Shown piece after piece: positions 25,047 through 36,450 of a stretch of 64,000 nt of DNA; positions within the stretch are counted from its first letter, which is position 1, and each line of letters opens with the position of its first letter. Source of the stretch: Zhongshania aliphaticivorans (GTDB taxonomy: Bacteria > Pseudomonadota > Gammaproteobacteria > Pseudomonadales > Spongiibacteraceae); NCBI RefSeq assembly GCF_902705875.1, contig NZ_CACSIK010000001.1:632742-696741 (forward strand). The letters are read 5' to 3'. The position numbers and the translations under genes are program-made. The notes beneath the pieces were generated by a model that had not been told where the DNA came from, did not search any database, and was given only the letters and a program-made list of their open reading frames with translations.

Positions 25047-25085
25047 CACTCGACTATAAATTCGCGTGTGATTATTGGAGGAAGG

Positions 25086-27578
25086 ATGGAATTTAAAAGG
25101 ACAGCTTTGGCATGGGGTATCGCATTGGCGACGCCGTTATTTTTAGCCGCGTGTGGCGGTGATGATGGCCGTAATGGTACTGATGGCAGCAATGGCGTAG
25201 CTGGTGCTGACGGTAGCAATGGCACTGATGGTGCTAACGGTGCAGATGGTGCTAACGGTGCAGATGGCAGCAACGGCTTAAATAGCTTGATTCGTCAAAC
25301 GTCGTTATTGGCTGGTGATGAGCAATGTTTCAGCGGTGGTGTAAAAGTCGAATCAGGTATTGATACTGATGCTGATGACAGTTTATCAGACAGCGAAGTA
25401 ACGGATACATCTTACGTTTGTGCGCCTACAGTAATAAATGAAGCGAAAAACTTTAACCGTATTGCTGCATTACCTGTTTGTTTACAAGATGATGCGAATT
25501 GCGATTCTGACGATACCACAGCAGCAGAAATTGTTGCGGCAAGCACAGATGGAATGACGTTAATTTATACTGACAGCCCATCGAACCGTGTTGGCTTTGC
25601 AGACATTACGGATCCATCAAAACCGTCTGTCATTGGTACTCTCGACTTGGCTGGTGAACCTACTTCTGTCGCCATTAAAGGCGATTTTGCACTGGTAGGT
25701 GTTAATACTTCTGCCGACTATATCAATGTTTCTGGCAGCCTAGATGTGATCGACATTGCTAGTCGTAGCAATGTACATAGCATTGACGTTGGTGGCCAAC
25801 CAGATTCAGTCGCGGTGAGCCCAGACGGTAGTTACGCGGTTGTAGTTATTGAAAATGAGCGTGACGAAGACCTAGGTGACGGTGCTCCACCACAGCTTCC
25901 AGCGGGTAATGTTGTAATCGTAACGCTAAGCGGTGCGCCAGCAGATTGGACAACGCAAACGGTAGCAATGACTGGCTTGGCTGATTTGTATGCCAACGAT
26001 CCAGAGCCAGAATATGTCGATATTAATAGCGACAATATTGCACTAATTTCCATGCAGGAAAATAATCATCTCGTATTGCTAGACTTGAGTGACGGAAGCA
26101 TCGTCAATCACTTTACTGCGGGCGCGGTAGATCTAGAAGGCGTTGACGCAACTGAAGATGACACCATTACTCAAAATGAAACACTAGCTGGCGTTTTACG
26201 TGAGCCTGATGGTGTAACGTGGTTGTCTACTGAGTATTTTGTAACTGCCAACGAAGGTGATTTAGACGGCGGTAGCCGCGGTTTCAGCGTGTTTAACACA
26301 GCGGGTGACGTTGTATATGAAGCAGGTAGCAGCTTAGACCACATGACAGCTCGCTTTGGTCATTACCCAGAATCTCGTTCTGAGAATAAAGGTAATGAGC
26401 CAGAAAATGCTGAATACGGTGTATACGGAAGTGAGCGCTATTTGTTTGTCAATTCAGAGCGTTCTAGCGTTGTCTTTGTCTATGATGTTGCCGATTTCAC
26501 CAAGCCTGTATTTAAGCAAGTATTGCCTGCGGCAGTGGGTCCAGAAGGTGCCTTAGCTATTCCTTCGCGCAACTTGTTGGTTGTGGCAAGTGAAGAAGAT
26601 AGCCGTGACGACGTAATGCGCTCGTCATTAAATATCTATCAATACGGTTCAGCATCTGCGAGCTACCCAACGATCGTCTCTAATGATCGCTTAGATGGTT
26701 CGCCAATTTCATGGAGTGCGCTGTCTGGTTTGTCAGCGGATCCAATGAATAGCAACCTTATTTATGCGGTAGATGATAGCTATTATCAAAAGAACCGTAT
26801 CTTCACTTTGGACGTTAGCGCTACACCTGCGGTGATTACCCATGAGACCCGTATTACCGATCCTAGCGGTCTATTACCGGCTGAAGCGATCAATGATGAC
26901 AATACGGTTAATATCGATCCTGAAGGTGTTGTGAAACTAGCAGATGGAAGCTTCTGGGTAGCGTCTGAAGGGGCCGGTCATGAGGTTGATGACTCGGTTG
27001 AGAGTCTGAACATGTTGGTTGAAACAGATGCTAGTGGTGTTGTGACTAAAGTAGTAACACTACCAGATGCAGTGAACGCACTTCAGCGCAATAACGGCTT
27101 TGAAGGTGTGACTGAATACCAAGGTAAGCTATATGTTGCTTTCCAGCGTGCTTGGGAAGGTGAAGCTAATGTACGCATTGGTATTTATGACATCGCTACT
27201 GAAGCTTGGTCATTCCTGTTCTACACCTTGGATGCGCCTGAGTCACAGAATGGTGGCTGGGTAGGCTTGTCAGAAATTACTTCTATCGGTAATGGCGAGT
27301 TCCTAGTTATTGAACGTGATAACCAAGGTGGACCAGATGCTGCACTCAAGCGTTTGTATAAGTTTGATACGACAGGCTTGGCAGATGGTACAACGGTGGC
27401 TAAATCATTGGTTCGCGATGTATTGCCAGACATGATCGCTACCGGTGGTATGGTAACTGAAAAGATCGAAGGTACTGCATTATTGAAAAATGGTGATGTA
27501 CTTATGGTTAACGACAATGATGGTGTAGAAGATAGCAACGGTGAAACACAGTTGCTTAACCTAGGTAATATTCTGTAA
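25086..27578 (+). CDS. Collagen-repeat lipoprotein with phytase-type esterase domain
   Basis: An 830-residue predicted lipoprotein. I use the ATG at 25086, directly after GGAGGAAGG, instead of the upstream GTG at 25068. The signal peptide ends in the lipobox LAAC. Gly-Xaa-Xaa collagen-like triplets follow (about residues 30-65), then a short Cys-containing domain (DDSLSDSEVTDTSYVC). A beta-propeller-like choice-of-anchor region comes next (about 110-500, with PDSVAVSPDGSYAVVVIENERDE). The C-terminal domain of COG4222 type, 'esterase-like activity of phytase', carries SWSALSGLSADP, DPEGVVKLADGSFWVASEG and FEGVTEYQGKLYVAFQ. The likely role is release of phosphate from organic phosphate esters at the cell surface. 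The Pho-box array just upstream supports this. Confidence 0.82.
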   Translation: MEFKRTALAWGIALATPLFLAACGGDDGRNGTDGSNGVAGADGSNGTDGANGADGANGADGSNGLNSLIRQTSLLAGDEQCFSGGVKVESGIDTDADDSLSDSEVTDTSYVCAPTVINEAKNFNRIAALPVCLQDDANCDSDDTTAAEIVAASTDGMTLIYTDSPSNRVGFADITDPSKPSVIGTLDLAGEPTSVAIKGDFALVGVNTSADYINVSGSLDVIDIASRSNVHSIDVGGQPDSVAVSPDGSYAVVVIENERDEDLGDGAPPQLPAGNVVIVTLSGAPADWTTQTVAMTGLADLYANDPEPEYVDINSDNIALISMQENNHLVLLDLSDGSIVNHFTAGAVDLEGVDATEDDTITQNETLAGVLREPDGVTWLSTEYFVTANEGDLDGGSRGFSVFNTAGDVVYEAGSSLDHMTARFGHYPESRSENKGNEPENAEYGVYGSERYLFVNSERSSVVFVYDVADFTKPVFKQVLPAAVGPEGALAIPSRNLLVVASEEDSRDDVMRSSLNIYQYGSASASYPTIVSNDRLDGSPISWSALSGLSADPMNSNLIYAVDDSYYQKNRIFTLDVSATPAVITHETRITDPSGLLPAEAINDDNTVNIDPEGVVKLADGSFWVASEGAGHEVDDSVESLNMLVETDASGVVTKVVTLPDAVNALQRNNGFEGVTEYQGKLYVAFQRAWEGEANVRIGIYDIATEAWSFLFYTLDAPESQNGGWVGLSEITSIGNGEFLVIERDNQGGPDAALKRLYKFDTTGLADGTTVAKSLVRDVLPDMIATGGMVTEKIEGTALLKNGDVLMVNDNDGVEDSNGETQLLNLGNIL
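25227..25262 (+). repeat. 18-bp tandem repeat in the collagen-like segment
   Basis: Two perfect adjacent copies of an 18-base unit encoding DGANGA lie inside a longer stretch of imperfect Gly-Xaa-Xaa codons. Such repeats can change copy number by slippage in multiples of 18 without shifting the frame. Confidence 0.8.
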
Positions 27579-29014: not shown

Positions 29015-29941
29015 ATGAACCTATCATTTGAACAACTTAAAAGCATGGTTGTGTTCTCTCAAGTCGTTGAGCAGGGCAATTTAAGCGCAGCCGCCAAGCA
29101 GATAGGTTTATCTCGTGCCTCTGTTAGCTACCATCTAAAGAAACTTGAGACCCAGCTAAATGTGACGCTGTTAAAACGCTCTACGCGTGCTATCGCATTA
29201 ACCGAAGAGGGCATGGCCTATTACCAATCCTGCCGTATTATTGCTGAGCAGGCTGCAACAGCTAATTTGCAAATAGAAAATCTAAAGAGAGAGCCCCAGG
29301 GCTTATTAAAAATAAGCTGCCCTGTAAATGTTGGTTTACAAATGGTTGTACCAGCCTTGAGTGAATTTCGTCGGCTTTATCCTAAAATTGAGTTAGATGT
29401 TATGTTGAGCGATGAGGTTATTAACATCATTCAAGAGGGCATCGACTTAGCGATACGGGGGGCGCCTTTACCCGACTCAGGGTTACAGGCAACAAAGTTA
29501 TCCATGCTGCCAACCTGCCTATGTGGTTCACCGGATTATTTTGCTAAGTACGGCCGGCCAACAACACCAGCAGAGTTGGAACAACACCATTGGGTTATTT
29601 ATAAACTGACTTCAGGCCCTATTAAATTAAGTAAAGGTAGCCGTGAATATAATGTCACGGTGACGGGAGATATTAGTACGAACAATGCCGCTGCCCGCAC
29701 GGCCTTTATTCTAGATGGACATGGTATCGGCAGAATTCCTGTTTATGATGCCCGGCCCAAGCTAGAGGCTGGGCTCTTAGAAACCGTACTTGATGATTAC
29801 CAACTCAAGAATATCGATGTATACGGCGTCTTTCCGCCAGGTAGTGCTAACTCTAAAAAGTTGCGTGTATTAATTGATTTTCTGAAAGATTATTTTGAGA
29901 AGTTCGACCGTCATACATCGAATATTCTTCCCTCGTCATAA
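29015..29941 (+). CDS. LysR family transcriptional regulator
   Basis: A 308-residue DNA-binding regulator. Residues 5-65 form the winged helix-turn-helix (FSQVVEQGNLSAAAKQIGLSRASVSYHLKKLETQL). The rest is the periplasmic-binding-protein-like effector domain starting GLLKISCPVNVGLQMV. It belongs to the CrgA/DsdC-like subgroup (PBP2 with DGIDLAIR-type segment, here EGIDLAIRGAPLPDSGL). It is transcribed divergently from yqhD, the usual layout for a LysR regulator and its target, so control of yqhD is likely but unproven. It converges on the hydrolase gene with a 29-base gap. Confidence 0.88.
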   Translation: MNLSFEQLKSMVVFSQVVEQGNLSAAAKQIGLSRASVSYHLKKLETQLNVTLLKRSTRAIALTEEGMAYYQSCRIIAEQAATANLQIENLKREPQGLLKISCPVNVGLQMVVPALSEFRRLYPKIELDVMLSDEVINIIQEGIDLAIRGAPLPDSGLQATKLSMLPTCLCGSPDYFAKYGRPTTPAELEQHHWVIYKLTSGPIKLSKGSREYNVTVTGDISTNNAAARTAFILDGHGIGRIPVYDARPKLEAGLLETVLDDYQLKNIDVYGVFPPGSANSKKLRVLIDFLKDYFEKFDRHTSNILPSS

Positions 29942-29970: not shown

Positions 29971-30837
29971 CTAGGTGGAAGTAATGTTGTAGATTAAGAA
30001 ATTATCAATCGCGTTTAATGCTTCTGTTTCGCTGAGAAGTGGGGCGTGTCCACAGTGGGGGATTTCTACAAATTGCATATCAGGTTTGAGGGTTTGCATT
30101 TTTCTGACACATTGTTGGTTGAGAATATCTGATAATTCGCCACGAAATAATAACAAAGGTATATTCTGCATTGCCGTAAATAAAGGCCATAGGTCGGAAG
30201 TGGTGTCGTCGTTTTGCTGGTTTAACAAATGGCTAATAGCAAAATCATAAGCCAGTTCAGGTTGTCCTAGGGCGTTTTCTCGGTAAAGATTTTTACTAAA
30301 AATAAGCCAGTCTTCATCGCTGAAGTTAGGGTACTCTTGAGCCTGAATAGATTTCGTTTTTTCAACGGCTTCTGACCAGTTTTTGACAGTGCTTTTGTTG
30401 CCAACGTAGCGCTTAATACGGTCTAGGCCTGCTTTGTCGGGTTCGGGGCCAATGTCATTCATTACAATTGCTTGGATGCGTTCAGGGGCTGTCGCGGCCA
30501 GTACCATAGACACAATCCCACCTAAAGAGGTGCCAATAAAGATCGCTGAGGGTAATGCCAAACTGCCCATCAAGCTCAAAATATCATTTGCGTAACACCC
30601 AGGATGGTAGTTTTCAGGATTGGTGTCGTAATCAGATTGGCCTCTTCCGCGTAAGTCCACTGCCAAAATACGGTAGCGGGGGGCTAAATGTTCACACAAA
30701 GCAGTAAAGTCCGAGGAGTTACGTGTCAAGCCGGGTATACAGATGATGGTCTGCTCAGCTGTTGTGTTGCCATATTGCCGGGCATAAAGGCGTAAACCAT
30801 CGCTGCTTTGATACCAGTAATCGCTATAGTTTTGCAT
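29971..30837 (-). CDS. Alpha/beta hydrolase
   Basis: A 288-residue alpha/beta-hydrolase-fold enzyme. The nucleophile elbow is GTSLGG with Ser104. The oxyanion region is IPGLTRNSSDF, with the strand VDLRGRGQSDY upstream as in many esterases and lipases. The candidate acid lies in the segment FRGELSDIL, and the His in PHCGHAPLL. No signal peptide is seen, so it should act in the cytoplasm. It is encoded downstream of the TonB-dependent receptor on the same strand, 121 bases apart with a hairpin between. The substrate is unknown. In context, an ester brought in by the neighbouring uptake genes and giving a 3-hydroxy acid would fit. Confidence 0.83.
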   Translation of the reverse strand: MQNYSDYWYQSSDGLRLYARQYGNTTAEQTIICIPGLTRNSSDFTALCEHLAPRYRILAVDLRGRGQSDYDTNPENYHPGCYANDILSLMGSLALPSAIFIGTSLGGIVSMVLAATAPERIQAIVMNDIGPEPDKAGLDRIKRYVGNKSTVKNWSEAVEKTKSIQAQEYPNFSDEDWLIFSKNLYRENALGQPELAYDFAISHLLNQQNDDTTSDLWPLFTAMQNIPLLLFRGELSDILNQQCVRKMQTLKPDMQFVEIPHCGHAPLLSETEALNAIDNFLIYNITST

Positions 30838-30958: not shown

Positions 30959-33265
30959 TTAAAATGCATACGCTACGCTCGCCGTCCAAGTTCGAGGCGC
31001 CCCGTAGAAAGCCAGTTCCCCCGACCCTAAATTGTAACCGCCAGTCTTATATTCTTTGTCGGTAATATTCTTTAAGTAAACGCTAACGGTCCAATGTTCA
31101 TCGGCGGAGTACCAGTTAGCGCTGGCATCCAATAAGGTATAAGCCTTATCTTGATCACAGCTACATAAAACGTTGTTAAAGTTTCTGGAAGCGTCACGAT
31201 AAGATGCCGCGGTATTTACCATAATGCTGCCGGCATTCCCTAAATCGCGCTCAAAATTCACACCGAGCTGGCCAGTCCAATCTGGGGCGTTGAGCATTTC
31301 CCAGCTGTCAGAAACATCGACTCCAGCCGAGATGACTTCGGTCAGTTCAGCGTTCATGTGACCAATGGCCACCGAGGTACTGATTCCGCTAGTCACTTGG
31401 AGTAAGGCTTCTAATTCAGCGCCTTGAATTTCTGCAGTACCGGCGTTAACGACATCTGAGGAGAAAAAGACCGGTGCTGGTTGTGCTGTTTGCACGGTTA
31501 GCTGCATATCGGTGTAATCCATATCGAAAACTGTAAAGTTTAAACGAAGCCGGTCATCCCATAGCTGTGATTTGATACCCGCCTCGATAGTATCAACGGT
31601 TTCAGGATCATAGCCTTTAGCAACGTCGGGATTGGTTGAGGCATTGCCCCGCATATCAAACCCGCCAGATTTAAAACCTTCTGCGTAGCTAACGTAGAGC
31701 ATGACATTGTCATTCATTTGCCAGTCGAGCTTGATTGACGGGCTTAATTCGCTCCAGTCTTTGTCGGCTTCTTTGTCGCTAATATCGGTGGCGATTGAGA
31801 GTAAGGTATCGTCGTTAGGGTCGCCATAGGTGAAGCCGGAGCCTTGGTTTTGTGTGTAAGGGAAAGAGTTAGTTGTGTTATAGGCGTAACGTTGAATATT
31901 GGAGTTTTTGTCGTCTTTAGTGAGGCGCAAACCAGTAGTAAGGGTCAGGTTGGCAGTAAGGTCAATACTGGCATTTATGTAAGCGGACGTGCTTTCGGTA
32001 TCGACATCACCGCCAATGGCCAAATCATAATGCTCACCATCCATGTATGGCGTGCCGCCCAAGCCGTTTAACACGACATCAAAAGCGCCAGCTGAGTTAC
32101 CCGTAAAATAATATAAGCCAGCTACGATAGCTAGGCGATCTACAGTGTAGTTAAATTGTAATTCATGCGACTTTTGATCGTCGGAATACTTGGCTGGGAC
32201 ATCGAAAGCGTCGAGTGGGGTGCCATCAAAATCAATAAATTGTTGAGTTTCACCTTCGCGTTTGGCAAACACATATTTTACGGTAGTCGTTTCACTCAAA
32301 TCATACTGTGCTGTTAATGAGAAGCCGCTGTTCTCAACATTGGAAACATGGCTGGTACCGCAAGCGCCATCGTAAGGGCTGCTTGAGGTGGTGAATGCTT
32401 GGCCCGTCGAAGGATGGGTGAGTAAGCTTTGGTTAGATTGTGAACCGCAAGGCTGATTAGAGTTGTCATCAGTACGATCCCCAGAAAGGCGAATGAATAA
32501 CTGATCGTTCGGTGTATATTCTGCGCTAACTCTCGCTACCAATACGTCTTTATTATAATTTTCTTCACTACTACTGTAGGTGCCGGTATTAATATCATAG
32601 CCGGTATCAACATCACCGTAGCCGTCACGCGTCATTTTGGCTATGGCACCACCGAGATATAGTTCATTATCGATAACGGGAAGTTGACCAGAAATACTGA
32701 CATCTCGTTGCCCGTATGCTCCCGTTGCTGCAGTAATTTTCGCTTCAGCGTCTCCGGTCATTTTGCGAGTAATGTATTTGATTGCGCCACCAACGGTATT
32801 TTTTCCGTACAGCGTACCTTGGGGGCCGCGTAAAACTTCAATGCGTTCAACATCAAATACATCCATAACAGCAGCCTGAGGACGGGCGTAGTAAACGTCA
32901 TCCACATATACCCCGACGCCGGGTTCAAATCCCCACAATGGGTCTTGTTGGCCAACCCCACGAATGTAAGCAGTAAGTGTGGAGTTGGTTGCTCGACTAG
33001 CGCGGAACTGGGTGTTAGGAACACTTTTTTCCAGTTCAGTAATTGTAGTAATACCTTTAGTTTCGAGCTCCGTGGCATTGAATGAGGTAATAGAGACAGG
33101 AACTTCTTGGAGATTCTGTTCGCGTTTTTGCGCAGTTACCAAAACTTCCTCAAGGACTACAGAGATATCTTGCTGTGACCAAGCAGTGTTGTGGTTAAGT
33201 GCAGAGGCGCTACCTATTGCGACTAACATGGCCAGGCGTTTCTTGTTGCTTGTTATATTTATCAT
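30959..33265 (-). CDS. TonB-dependent receptor
   Basis: A 768-residue outer-membrane active transporter energised by TonB. It has a signal peptide, then a TonB-box-like segment (LEEVLVTAQKREQNLQEVP). The plug domain includes VYVDDVYYARPQAAVMDVFDVERIEVLRGPQGTLYGKNTVGGAI, and a beta-barrel follows that ends in the aromatic WTASVAYAF as required for insertion. It is of the catecholate/steroid-type 'LRGPQGTLYGKNT' class common in marine degraders; the substrate cannot be read from sequence. Two copies of the TTCAAC-N4-GTTGAA palindrome lie 59-106 bases before its start. This suggests regulation by the nearby TetR protein. Confidence 0.93.
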   Translation of the reverse strand: MINITSNKKRLAMLVAIGSASALNHNTAWSQQDISVVLEEVLVTAQKREQNLQEVPVSITSFNATELETKGITTITELEKSVPNTQFRASRATNSTLTAYIRGVGQQDPLWGFEPGVGVYVDDVYYARPQAAVMDVFDVERIEVLRGPQGTLYGKNTVGGAIKYITRKMTGDAEAKITAATGAYGQRDVSISGQLPVIDNELYLGGAIAKMTRDGYGDVDTGYDINTGTYSSSEENYNKDVLVARVSAEYTPNDQLFIRLSGDRTDDNSNQPCGSQSNQSLLTHPSTGQAFTTSSSPYDGACGTSHVSNVENSGFSLTAQYDLSETTTVKYVFAKREGETQQFIDFDGTPLDAFDVPAKYSDDQKSHELQFNYTVDRLAIVAGLYYFTGNSAGAFDVVLNGLGGTPYMDGEHYDLAIGGDVDTESTSAYINASIDLTANLTLTTGLRLTKDDKNSNIQRYAYNTTNSFPYTQNQGSGFTYGDPNDDTLLSIATDISDKEADKDWSELSPSIKLDWQMNDNVMLYVSYAEGFKSGGFDMRGNASTNPDVAKGYDPETVDTIEAGIKSQLWDDRLRLNFTVFDMDYTDMQLTVQTAQPAPVFFSSDVVNAGTAEIQGAELEALLQVTSGISTSVAIGHMNAELTEVISAGVDVSDSWEMLNAPDWTGQLGVNFERDLGNAGSIMVNTAASYRDASRNFNNVLCSCDQDKAYTLLDASANWYSADEHWTVSVYLKNITDKEYKTGGYNLGSGELAFYGAPRTWTASVAYAF

Positions 33266-33323: not shown

Positions 33324-33339
33324 TTCAACATCCGTTGAA
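33324..33339. promoter_or_regulatory. Palindromic operator copy 1, upstream of TonB receptor
   Basis: TTCAACATCCGTTGAA is a perfect 6+6 palindrome with a 4-base spacer. It directly abuts a weak -35-like TTTGGC, with a -10-like TATAAA 18 bases further on, both read on the minus strand. Confidence 0.72.
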
Positions 33340-33355
33340 GTTAATGCTGAGGTTA

Positions 33356-33371
33356 TTCAACGATTGTTGAA
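33356..33371. promoter_or_regulatory. Palindromic operator copy 2, upstream of TonB receptor
   Basis: TTCAACGATTGTTGAA has the same arms as copy 1 and begins 32 bases further from the receptor gene, close to three helical turns, so two dimers could bind on one face of the DNA. Confidence 0.72.
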
Positions 33372-33416
33372 ATGTCAATAAAAGTTAGCTTAAATTATTT
33401 AATATCATCGTTGTTG

Positions 33417-34850
33417 TTAACGTGCTGTACGAAAGTTGATCCATGCCATTCCTAGCAGCGTGTATGCGCAAGAGGCAATAATGGCGTAGCTGGCGGATAC
33501 GGCTGGATTGGCAACTCCCGCAAATAAATTGAGATAAAAATGCATTAAAAGTGCTAAGACAGAGGCGCTGGCAACCAGTAGTAATGGCAAAGGTTTAGGA
33601 ATAATTACGCCAAACAGCATAGGCACTAGTGAGGCGGCGGCCAAACCATAGACGCCTTTTTGTGCAAATATTCCGATTAACGGTGGTGGGTTCCATGCGA
33701 GCGCTAAGCCAATCAGTCCAACAGCAATTAATACCCATCTGGACCACGCCAGGCCATTACTTTGATGCTTGCTTAGGGGCGTTACAATGTCATTGACGAC
33801 CATGGCTGATAGTGACACGAGGATGCCATCCAATGTGCTCATGCCGGCGGCAAGTAAGGTAATAAAAATAAAGGTGAGAGTTAGCTGGCCAAGGGCACTG
33901 CCGCTGAATTCGTGGAGTAAGTATTCTCTGACCACAGTGTCTTGAATAGGAATATCTAACCCGGCAAGGCGGGCGTAAAAACCAACCATTAAAATCAGTG
34001 TAAAGAGCGTACCGACAACAACCGTTGTGCCAATGAATTTACCAATATCCGCTTCACTGCGTAAATATAAAACCTTGGTTAATATGTGTGGCTGTAGCAT
34101 TAGAGCAAAGGTGACAATAAACCCCCCGCCAAACACCGAGAAAAAATCGTAGTAAAGATTACTTTCTGAATTGAAAACAGCACCATAACCAGGGCTGATC
34201 GACTTTAAAGATTGAATGATGTTGCCATCAAAATACTTAAAACCTTGCACGAATAGCAGTAGCGTTACCAATAACATCATAATACCTTGTAAGGTATTGG
34301 TGTAAGCGTGTGCGTAGGTGCCGCCCATTAGTACGTAGGAAAAAACAAATAATAAGATACCAACCAATGCGGTTTTTTGCTCTATTGGAAAAATCCCTGT
34401 CATTAGTAAACTGCAGCCAACCAAAATTAAAACGACAAAACTGATAGATAACAGGTTGATAAAAGCAAAAAACAAACTAAAGCCGCGATGATGGTAGCGA
34501 TGGTAAATCCACTGCGGGATAGTCAGTGATTTATTTTCTTCCCCGAGGCGCAAAAAACCGCGAGATAACACTAAAAAAGCAGTAAGAATACCCGCCGACC
34601 CCGCAACACCGTAGTGGACATAAGCTGAGAGGCCGTGAGCATAAACAAAGCCTGGGTTAATAACAAAGGTAGCCGTGGAGGCAATGGAAGCGGCGAGTGT
34701 AATACCAATTAAGTAGGGGCTCATATCTTTATTGCCAATCGCAAAGCCGCCCATGTCCTTGGTTCTACGCATCCCTATCCATGACAGTCCGTAAACAAGG
34801 ACCACATATGTGCCGCTGAGCACATATTTAAATATTTCTGCCGATGTCAT
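33417..34850 (-). CDS. Sodium:solute symporter family protein
   Basis: A 477-residue inner-membrane transporter with about 13 hydrophobic segments, of the SSS family. Typical segments are GGFAIGNKDMSPYLIGITLAASIASTATFVINPGF near the N-terminus and LAAGMSTLDGILVSLSAMVVNDI in the region that helps form the Na+ site. It resembles the acetate/propionate/panthothenate branch, which carries small carboxylates, but the substrate is not certain. It is divergent from tetR-bdhA, with a 159-base control region that contains the same palindrome as the TonB receptor promoter. It would take the compound from periplasm to cytoplasm after outer-membrane uptake. Confidence 0.87.
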   Translation of the reverse strand: MTSAEIFKYVLSGTYVVLVYGLSWIGMRRTKDMGGFAIGNKDMSPYLIGITLAASIASTATFVINPGFVYAHGLSAYVHYGVAGSAGILTAFLVLSRGFLRLGEENKSLTIPQWIYHRYHHRGFSLFFAFINLLSISFVVLILVGCSLLMTGIFPIEQKTALVGILLFVFSYVLMGGTYAHAYTNTLQGIMMLLVTLLLFVQGFKYFDGNIIQSLKSISPGYGAVFNSESNLYYDFFSVFGGGFIVTFALMLQPHILTKVLYLRSEADIGKFIGTTVVVGTLFTLILMVGFYARLAGLDIPIQDTVVREYLLHEFSGSALGQLTLTFIFITLLAAGMSTLDGILVSLSAMVVNDIVTPLSKHQSNGLAWSRWVLIAVGLIGLALAWNPPPLIGIFAQKGVYGLAAASLVPMLFGVIIPKPLPLLLVASASVLALLMHFYLNLFAGVANPAVSASYAIIASCAYTLLGMAWINFRTAR

Positions 34851-34892
34851 GTACTATTCGCCTTGTATTTTAATTATTGGTAAGCCACTATA

Positions 34893-34908
34893 TTCAACGC
34901 TTGTTGAA
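34893..34908. promoter_or_regulatory. Palindromic operator copy 3, between symporter and tetR
   Basis: TTCAACGCTTGTTGAA lies 43 bases upstream of the symporter start and 101 bases upstream of the tetR start. Its position allows control of both divergent transcripts. Confidence 0.75.
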
Positions 34909-35009
34909 AAGACAAGGGTCGATGATCAATCGGCAGAGGATTACCCAAGCGTGATTTTGATAGGGATTGCTGTGATAACGGCATTGCTGGGCGTAAGGAT
35001 AGAAGTTTG

Positions 35010-35654
35010 ATGAGTAAAAAAGATAATGGCCTTAAAAGTGAGCGAATTCTTGATGTGGCAGAAGAGTTGTTTGCCATGCATGGCTTTGATGGCGTGACAA
35101 TGCGCCAGATTTCAAGTGGTGCCAATGTGGATGTAGCGCTAGCCAGTTACCATTTTGGTAAAAAACTGGATGTTTTTTACGCGGTTTTTAATCGGCGTGC
35201 GGAGTTGTTGGGTAATACTCGCAGAGAAGTGCTACGTAGCAGTTTGCAAGCAGCCAGCGGTGAGCCACAAACATTGGAGCAGATTATAGAAGCGTTTTTA
35301 CTGCCCTTAAAATTTGCGCAAGAAAGCGGTGATCCTGGCTGGAAAAATTATATGGCATTGCTGGCTTATGTCATGACATCGCCAGTTTGGAGCAAAACAT
35401 TAATGGAAAATAACTTTGATAAGCATGTGGCGGAGTTTATCAAAGCGCTTAAAGTTATTTTTCCAAAATCTAAAGAAGAAGATTTACATTGGTGTTATCA
35501 CTATGTGTCTGGTGCGCTCGCATTAACCTTAGCGCAGACCGGGCGTATAGATAGGTTGTCTGGCGGAAAATGTCATTCTTCTGATTTCGAAACAGCTTAT
35601 CAGCGGATGATTCCCTTTATGGCGGCAGGATTTAGAGCCGTGTGTGAAAAATAG
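35010..35654 (+). CDS. TetR/AcrR family transcriptional regulator
   Basis: A 214-residue regulator. The N-terminal helix-turn-helix is classical: ERILDVAEELFAMHGFDGVTMRQISSGANVDVALASYHFGKK. The C-terminal ligand domain resembles the DUF1956/CerR-like group (LPLKFAQESGDPGWKNYMALLAYV). The ATG at 35010 has AAGGAT about 10 bases upstream; a TTG directly before it could extend the protein by one residue. It is followed after 22 bases by the bdhA-like gene, so the two are probably cotranscribed. It is the obvious candidate to bind the three TTCAAC-N4-GTTGAA palindromes in this locus, probably as a repressor released by a substrate or its CoA ester. Confidence 0.88.
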   Translation: MSKKDNGLKSERILDVAEELFAMHGFDGVTMRQISSGANVDVALASYHFGKKLDVFYAVFNRRAELLGNTRREVLRSSLQAASGEPQTLEQIIEAFLLPLKFAQESGDPGWKNYMALLAYVMTSPVWSKTLMENNFDKHVAEFIKALKVIFPKSKEEDLHWCYHYVSGALALTLAQTGRIDRLSGGKCHSSDFETAYQRMIPFMAAGFRAVCEK

Positions 35655-35676: not shown

Positions 35677-36450
35677 ATGAGAAGTAAAACGGCGTTAGTA
35701 ACGGGAGCGGCTAGTGGTATAGGATTGGCTATAGGTAATGATTTGTGTCGACAAGGTTTTACTGTTTGGTATAGCGACATCAGCTTACAAGACGCAGAAA
35801 GCGCAGCAAGTGTGTCCATCGCCAAAGGTTTCAATGCGCATGCAATAAAGCTTGATGTGACCAGTGAAAGCGATATAAATTATGTCGTTGAACAGCTAGT
35901 CGAACATGGTGGTTATTTAGATATTCTGATCAACAATGCGGGTATTCAACATGTTGCTAGGCTGGAAGATTTTCCCGTTGATCGCTGGAAGTTAATCACC
36001 GAGATATTGCTGATTGGGCCGGCTATGCTTTGTCGAGCATTGCTGCCTTTAATGCGCCAACAAAACTTTGGTCGAATTATTAATGTTGGCTCCATTCATT
36101 CTCTTATCGCATCCCCCCATAAAAGTGCTTATGTAGCCGCCAAGCATGGTTTGCTAGGCTTTTCTAAAGTGGTGGCGCTAGAAACGTCGGATCAAAATAT
36201 TACCATCAATACCCTGTGCCCGTCTTATGTGAAGACACCGCTGGTGGAGCAGCAGATTGCCAGTCAGGCCAAGGTGCATGGTATTTCAGAAGAAGACGTT
36301 ATTAATAAGATCATGTTGGAGCCAATGCCTAAAAAGAGCTTTATTGACATGGATGAGCTAAGCGCTGCCGTGAATTATTTAGTGAGCGACGCGGCGCGAA
36401 ATATGACCGGGCAGGAGCTGGTTATTGATGGTGGTTGGACCATAAAATAA
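35677..36450 (+). CDS. 3-hydroxybutyrate dehydrogenase-like short-chain dehydrogenase
   Basis: A 257-residue NAD-dependent SDR. It has the cofactor motif VTGAASGIGLAI, the structural NNAGIQHVARLEDFP, and the catalytic Ser/Tyr/Lys in NVGSIHSLIASPHKSAYVAAKHG. The IQHVA signature, the HGLLGFSKVVALET segment and the C-terminal MTGQELVIDGGW are characteristic of D-3-hydroxybutyrate dehydrogenases (BdhA), which give acetoacetate. Cotranscription with tetR and proximity to a carboxylate-type symporter support oxidation of an imported 3-hydroxy acid. Closely related SDRs use other hydroxy compounds, so the substrate is a good inference, not a certainty. Confidence 0.82.
   Translation: MRSKTALVTGAASGIGLAIGNDLCRQGFTVWYSDISLQDAESAASVSIAKGFNAHAIKLDVTSESDINYVVEQLVEHGGYLDILINNAGIQHVARLEDFPVDRWKLITEILLIGPAMLCRALLPLMRQQNFGRIINVGSIHSLIASPHKSAYVAAKHGLLGFSKVVALETSDQNITINTLCPSYVKTPLVEQQIASQAKVHGISEEDVINKIMLEPMPKKSFIDMDELSAAVNYLVSDAARNMTGQELVIDGGWTIK

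Follow-up and report, generated by a model that had tools for sequence, protein, structure and literature searches.

Local repressors of the TetR family, with a divergent regulator gene and a palindromic operator that overlaps the promoter, are a well-known kind of regulator, and NicR is the repressor of nicotinate degradation. NicR and PsrA are, by sequence, the closest characterized relatives of the TetR-family regulator encoded in the DNA analyzed here, a 64,000-nucleotide stretch of the Zhongshania aliphaticivorans genome hereafter called the window. Its best PDB sequence match was NicR (5fhp and 5fgl, E 7.9e-17), whose pathway differs from that of the present TetR, and 2fbq, which we take to be PsrA of P. 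aeruginosa, was also retrieved at E ~1e-16. According to the accessible part of PMC13104628, PsrA binds C/GAAAC-N2-4-GTTTG/C, with TTCAAAC-N4-GTTTGAA at P. putida rpoS; going by that text, its operator is similar in outline to the site described below, whose half-site, TTCAAC, is one base shorter per arm. PsrA targets fatty-acid degradation and rpoS, whereas the predicted targets of this TetR form a local uptake and 3-hydroxybutyrate set. Identification of the protein as PsrA itself was rejected (97.5 bits against NF053516, cut-off 300), and the PsrA-type pattern CAAAC-N4-GTTTG, searched in this N4 form, occurred 10 times in the window genome versus 6 for its control, with none at this locus.

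The PHB-granule-associated regulator PhaR/AniA is a regulator of storage that also controls PHB metabolism (PMC12542648, from the portion available). Compared with that portion's account, the regulator here is a TetR protein adjoining genes for the use of extracellular polymer or oligomers. P. aeruginosa PA3973 was discarded as a namesake, its 13-bp motif, as given in the source text available, being the different SAAGRNMTGAACG. PsrA is also treated in a survey of Proteobacteria regulons (PMC5343134), and a term search of the main text of that survey returned no instance of hydroxybutyrate, polyhydroxy, or depolymerase. In the literature searched, with subscription papers mostly outside its scope, there was no account of this operator, nor of a TetR controlling a PHB depolymerase together with a TonB receptor. 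The locus is the same in principle as the classic local repressors, but neither its targets nor its operator sequence turned up in that literature; the design is familiar, while regulator, site, and gene set all seem to be without an earlier description.

The features of the locus were read as follows, with gene occurrence given for the 80 related loci introduced below.

29971..30837, minus strand: alpha/beta hydrolase, present in 55/80 related loci
30959..33265, minus strand: TonB-dependent receptor, present in 58/80 related loci
33324..33339, minus strand: predicted operator O2, located 32 bp downstream of O1 and presumably within the early transcribed portion of the receptor gene
33350..33355, minus strand: putative receptor -10 box TAACCT (3/6), immediately after O1, giving a 17-bp spacer
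33356..33371, minus strand: predicted operator O1 of the receptor promoter, TTCAACAATCGTTGAA, filling the -35/-10 spacer
33373..33378, minus strand: putative receptor -35 box TTGACA, 1 base before O1, from consensus reading and alignment
33417..34850, minus strand: sodium:solute symporter (PF00474), present in 63/80 related loci
34887..34892, minus strand: putative symporter -10 box TATAGT (5/6), 17-bp spacer filled by O3
34893..34908, minus strand: predicted operator O3, in the symporter promoter and at the same time within the upstream region of the divergent tetR
34910..34915, minus strand: putative symporter -35 box TTGTCT (4/6)
35010..35654, plus strand: TetR-family regulator, presumed repressor (PF17939, TetR_C_30), a remote PsrA relative
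35677..36450, plus strand: 3-hydroxybutyrate dehydrogenase (TIGR01963, 344.5 bits, cut-off 307.05)

Both domains of the regulator scored above their cut-offs (PF00440, the TetR_N helix-turn-helix, 41.7 bits; PF17939, 116 bits). The dehydrogenase gene begins 22 bp after tetR and is probably cotranscribed with it, and the alpha/beta hydrolase probably serves this set by hydrolyzing esters (oligomers). Our main reading, to which we assign a probability of roughly 0.88, is that the three palindromes are the operators of the TetR at 35010-35654, with O1 and O3 lying within the promoters of its target genes.

The initial annotation of this DNA had described three TTCAAC-N4-GTTGAA palindromes with identical arms, differing spacers, and a receptor-side pair starting 32 bases apart, and all of this was confirmed in the sequence, with 12/12 arm bases in each copy and ATCC, GATT, and GCTT as spacers. 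The same annotation held that occurrence at random frequency across the genome would speak against a regulon. In a search of the whole assembly (3,979,381 bases, or 3.98 Mb, on 7 contigs; completeness 100), the exact pattern was found three times, each time at this locus and all within 1.6 kb, with zero exact matches to the reversed control pattern. Copies with one mismatch numbered 7 elsewhere in the genome versus 6 for the control, which is chance level, and hence no additional regulon member can be claimed in the window genome. The four-base spacer is itself constrained: all three window palindromes follow the pattern R-N-N-Y, as do 162/164 oriented sites from related loci.

Orthologues of the regulator were sought across the order, where 15/145 genomes (window included) encoded one at >=53% identity, the next match being at 37%. 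By hand tally, the 15 TetR-bearing genomes held 36 exact sites versus 6 for the reversed control, with 13 of the 15 carrying them, and the 130 TetR-free genomes held 50 versus 39, a control total that includes 7 from the single genome G072. The palindrome is thus near its control rate where the regulator is missing, and retention of the motif in relatives lacking tetR, which had been named as a second ground for doubt, was not seen. The exact form was absent from two orthologue-bearing genomes, G043 and G080, which instead carried TTCATC-N4-GATGAA (the T variant) upstream of a PHB depolymerase gene adjoining tetR.

Scanning named genomes yielded 118 confirmed relatives, and the counts given here cover 80 of these 118 loci (L081-L160). 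TTCAWC-N4-GWTGAA was present in 78 of the 80 TetR-orthologue loci, and the exact form in 68; conservation of the palindrome had been proposed for comparison with that of the regulator, and the two go together to this extent. In the remaining two loci, L094 and L154, the TetR match is separated from a contig end by 5 and 171 bases, respectively. For most sites (169/178), the distance to the start of a gene for a receptor, symporter, TetR, depolymerase, or ligase was between -160 and 400 bp. The nine outside this assignment were L099:18875, whose spacer is atypical and which may be a chance site, together with the L092 pair and six sites on short contigs (L093, L119, L123, and L159) that appear to be placed like receptor sites. 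A reading of the palindromes as chance occurrences or a general repeat can draw on the frequency of single exact matches, since 35/130 TetR-free genomes had one or more. With three copies in 1.6 kb, none elsewhere in the genome, and the exact or T-variant form in nearly all orthologue loci, it is already contradicted and its probability is negligible.

The symporter (E up to 1e-60) was encoded in 10/145 order genomes, all 10 of which were also TetR-bearing, so the set offers no cases for a symporter-without-TetR control. In the stretches read around the distant TetR relatives of G355 (45% identity), G455 (42%; 66 bases of contig precede the reading frame), and G160 (35%), no exact or T-variant operator was found, and only weak receptor and ligase homologues (28-30%) lay near the G160 relative. 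At L073 and L126, the usual gene order is altered by inversion of the receptor gene, and both this gene and a divergent CoA ligase gene are preceded by operators.

Cross-locus alignment of the sites, oriented toward their target genes, revealed a recurrent arrangement of TTGACA, one base, the 16-bp operator, and then often TATNNT. One base plus the 16-bp operator between the two boxes means that the operator constitutes the 17-bp promoter spacer. The window sequences are TTGACA-T-O1-TAACCT for the receptor promoter and TTGTCT-T-O3-TATAGT for the symporter promoter; operator and promoter overlap at both as judged by consensus, with the receptor -10 box matching at 3/6. A -35 box of 5/6 or better ended exactly 1 base before the operator in 46/55 TonB-receptor loci with assigned sites, versus 0-2 of 95 receptor sites at 12 other offsets. 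Similarly, a -10 box of 4/6 or better was flush with the operator at 31/95 receptor sites versus 1-13 at other offsets, and at 31/60 symporter sites versus 0-8 elsewhere. Only 26/60 symporter sites had a -35 box with TTG and >=4/6, many in Halieaceae being without one. Among 32 exact sites from the order-genome loci, a -35 box of 5/6 or better at the 1-base offset occurred at just two, both in TetR-bearing genomes. Receptor operators were frequently paired, with a spacing of 29-34 bp in 34/40 pairs and a mode of 32, or about three helical turns. A generic promoter scan of the window yielded 3 promoters versus a shuffle mean of 4.6, and listed the symporter promoter but not the receptor promoter, whose -10 box is the 3/6 one noted above. 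Given that the scan total did not exceed the shuffles, the promoter geometry rests on the cross-locus comparison and not on that scan.

An operator in the -35/-10 spacer blocks polymerase. It is accordingly very improbable that this TetR is an activator at these sites, as some TetR-family proteins are (PMC13104628, in the part accessible), when the operator fills the spacer of promoters with good boxes. Repression fits the geometry better, and tetR may be autoregulated.

The composite operator-promoter pattern TTGACNNTTCAWCRNNYGWTGAA was used as a blind predictor of the regulator. It occurred in 2/369 class genomes, the window genome and G398, both TetR-bearing, and in 25/390 order genomes, with zero control matches among the matches listed. 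Across the class and order sets, 26 genomes were composite-positive and 25 of them encoded the TetR, G669 being the one that did not. Of 15 composite-positive genomes new to the TetR search, 14 encoded it, at 54-93% identity and 168-1676 bp from the site. No full-length orthologue at >=50% identity was encoded in 25 composite-negative genomes, which were chosen by us from the same groups and searched alongside the positives; one of these, G742, encoded a 40% relative. The strict composite is dispensable for the presence of the TetR, being absent from 5/15 TetR-bearing order genomes (G043, G080, G096, G119, and G127) and from the TetR-bearing class genome G493.

Two genomes from this survey had unusual loci. 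In the composite-negative G663 (L237:7313-7693), a C-terminal tetR remnant adjoins a gene for an alpha/beta hydrolase homologue; the 14 kb read contained no operator, and the locus seems to be a degenerate version of the system. G669 (L236:8560) lacks this TetR (searched at E up to 1e-30) but carries a perfect composite site, surrounded by reading frames unrelated to the query set; the site may be due to chance, a relic, or another regulator.

The half-sites also varied with the regulator. In a table of 79 rows (the window and 78 loci), half-sites carrying A or T were set against the residue at the position of K51, which by analogy with the general layout of TetR proteins would lie directly after the recognition helix. 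Lysine or arginine at this position was accompanied by A half-sites only in 59 loci and by a T half-site in two (L085 and L095), versus none and 18, respectively, for proline, valine, or asparagine. Although 15 of these 18 T loci fall in one clade, the half-site label requires >=5 changes on the TetR tree, and the variation is hence not a single inherited event. G099, which is outside the table, combines K51 with mixed (variant) half-sites. On balance, this covariation argues that this TetR is the reader of the site.

Further regulators are encoded near the palindromes, including a LysR at 29015-29941, and one of these could bind them while the TetR is a bystander, as the TetR-free composite site of G669 might suggest. 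We consider this highly unlikely. A homologue of this LysR at >=40% identity was encoded in 0/80 loci, although these were fetched by means of the TetR and its own presence there proves nothing; in addition, the composite predicted the TetR in all but one of the unseen genomes, and the half-site covaries with a TetR residue. The earlier proposal that the TetR binds all three palindromes is thus strongly supported, by comparison only, through the conserved loci, the blind test, and the covariation.

Comparison of gene content among relatives points to PHB or 3-hydroxybutyrate as the object of the regulon, an assignment that we regard as likely; in these marine bacteria, the TetR appears to govern the import and metabolism of degradation products of PHB, a natural polyester. 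In G398 and G493, a single cluster comprises genes for a PHB depolymerase homologue, the TetR, a short-chain dehydrogenase, the symporter, the receptor, a CoA ligase, and a hydrolase. The depolymerase homologues are 58-61% identical to the depolymerase of G134, and exact operators lie at the depolymerase and symporter genes of both genomes and at the receptor gene in G398. A remote operator pair precedes a depolymerase gene in G134, and in seven Alcanivorax/Alloalcanivorax loci a T-variant operator is followed by a depolymerase gene and then tetR. Two depolymerases that were tested matched the extracellular family NF050058 at 174.4 and 186.4 bits (cut-off 150), and depolymerase homologues were present in 13/80 named loci.

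We also scrutinized the order for operators near depolymerase genes. Matches to the NF050058 family (E up to 1e-20) occurred in 37 order genomes, of which 30 had scanned loci; the second G134 copy and the TetR-positive genomes G047 and G137, whose matches fell below the cut-off, were outside the scan. An exact or T-variant operator lay near a depolymerase-family gene in 3/5 TetR-positive genomes (G043, G080, and G134) versus 0/25 TetR-negative genomes; allowing one mismatch, these figures rose to 4/5, with the addition of G099, and 1/25 (G081, where the site is 1.2 kb off). In the TetR-positive G003, which has a sub-cut-off depolymerase homologue, no operator was found near that gene.

A 3-hydroxybutyrate dehydrogenase homologue was present in 12/80 loci and an AMP-binding CoA ligase in 34/80, yet both in 0/80, as if CoA activation and oxidation were alternatives near this tetR. 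The chance of no overlap is 0.0006 if the loci are assumed to be independent and complete, and these loci are neither. The window genome had no match to the two depolymerase families searched, PF10503 and NF050058; encoding the dehydrogenase without such a depolymerase, it may live on oligomers that others release.

It is unlikely, though less so than the other alternatives, that the TetR binds these operators but serves another pathway, for an ester other than PHB or a short fatty acid, with the PHB link being lineage-specific. This alternative shares the regulator-operator part with our main reading. It gains from the remote relationship of the TetR to the fatty-acid sensor PsrA, from the lack of a PF10503/NF050058 depolymerase in the window genome, and from the match of the relatives' CoA ligase to generic fatty-acyl ligase models, below cut-off. 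Against it stand the 3-hydroxybutyrate dehydrogenase encoded directly after tetR, which scores above its family cut-off, the exact or T-variant operators upstream of above-cut-off NF050058 depolymerases in G043, G080, and G134 (with one mismatch in G099), and the recurrence of depolymerase homologues among the named loci. Receptor identity falls to 31-40% in many related loci, and the receptor substrate may therefore vary.

On the preferred assignment to PHB or 3-hydroxybutyrate, TetR dimers on O1 and O3 would occupy the -35/-10 spacers of the receptor and symporter promoters and exclude RNA polymerase, while O2, approximately three helical turns downstream of O1, could bind a second dimer or act as a roadblock, strengthening repression. 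Binding of a ligand, probably 3-hydroxybutyrate, a short oligomer thereof, or a CoA derivative, would cause the repressor to leave. The TonB receptor would then import oligomers of 3-hydroxybutyrate or related esters. Their transport across the inner membrane would fall to the symporter, cleavage of the esters to the alpha/beta hydrolase, and oxidation of the monomer to the dehydrogenase. In relatives, PHB depolymerases would be controlled via the same operator. With about even odds, the locus may be a polyester-utilization locus, a PHB counterpart of the polysaccharide-utilization loci, in which the receptor imports 3-hydroxybutyrate oligomers and a dedicated TetR also commands a secreted depolymerase where one is present. 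Lineages of the window type would then have retained uptake but no depolymerase, scavenging from the PHB digestion of others.

The regulator, its operator, and the promoter geometry together offer a candidate marker of genes for extracellular PHB use in Gammaproteobacteria, with Halieaceae, Spongiibacteraceae, Microbulbifer, and Alloalcanivorax as named members. Searching genomes for the composite site could reveal genes of PHB degradation and single out a candidate TonB receptor for oligomers of the polyester, a step of which no account was found in the literature searched; the TetR would be a natural start for a biosensor of 3-hydroxybutyrate or PHB digests. Elsewhere in the window, the ORF at 25068-27578 has, from its translation, a lipoprotein-like start followed by collagen-like glycine-rich repeats (NGTDGSNG...).
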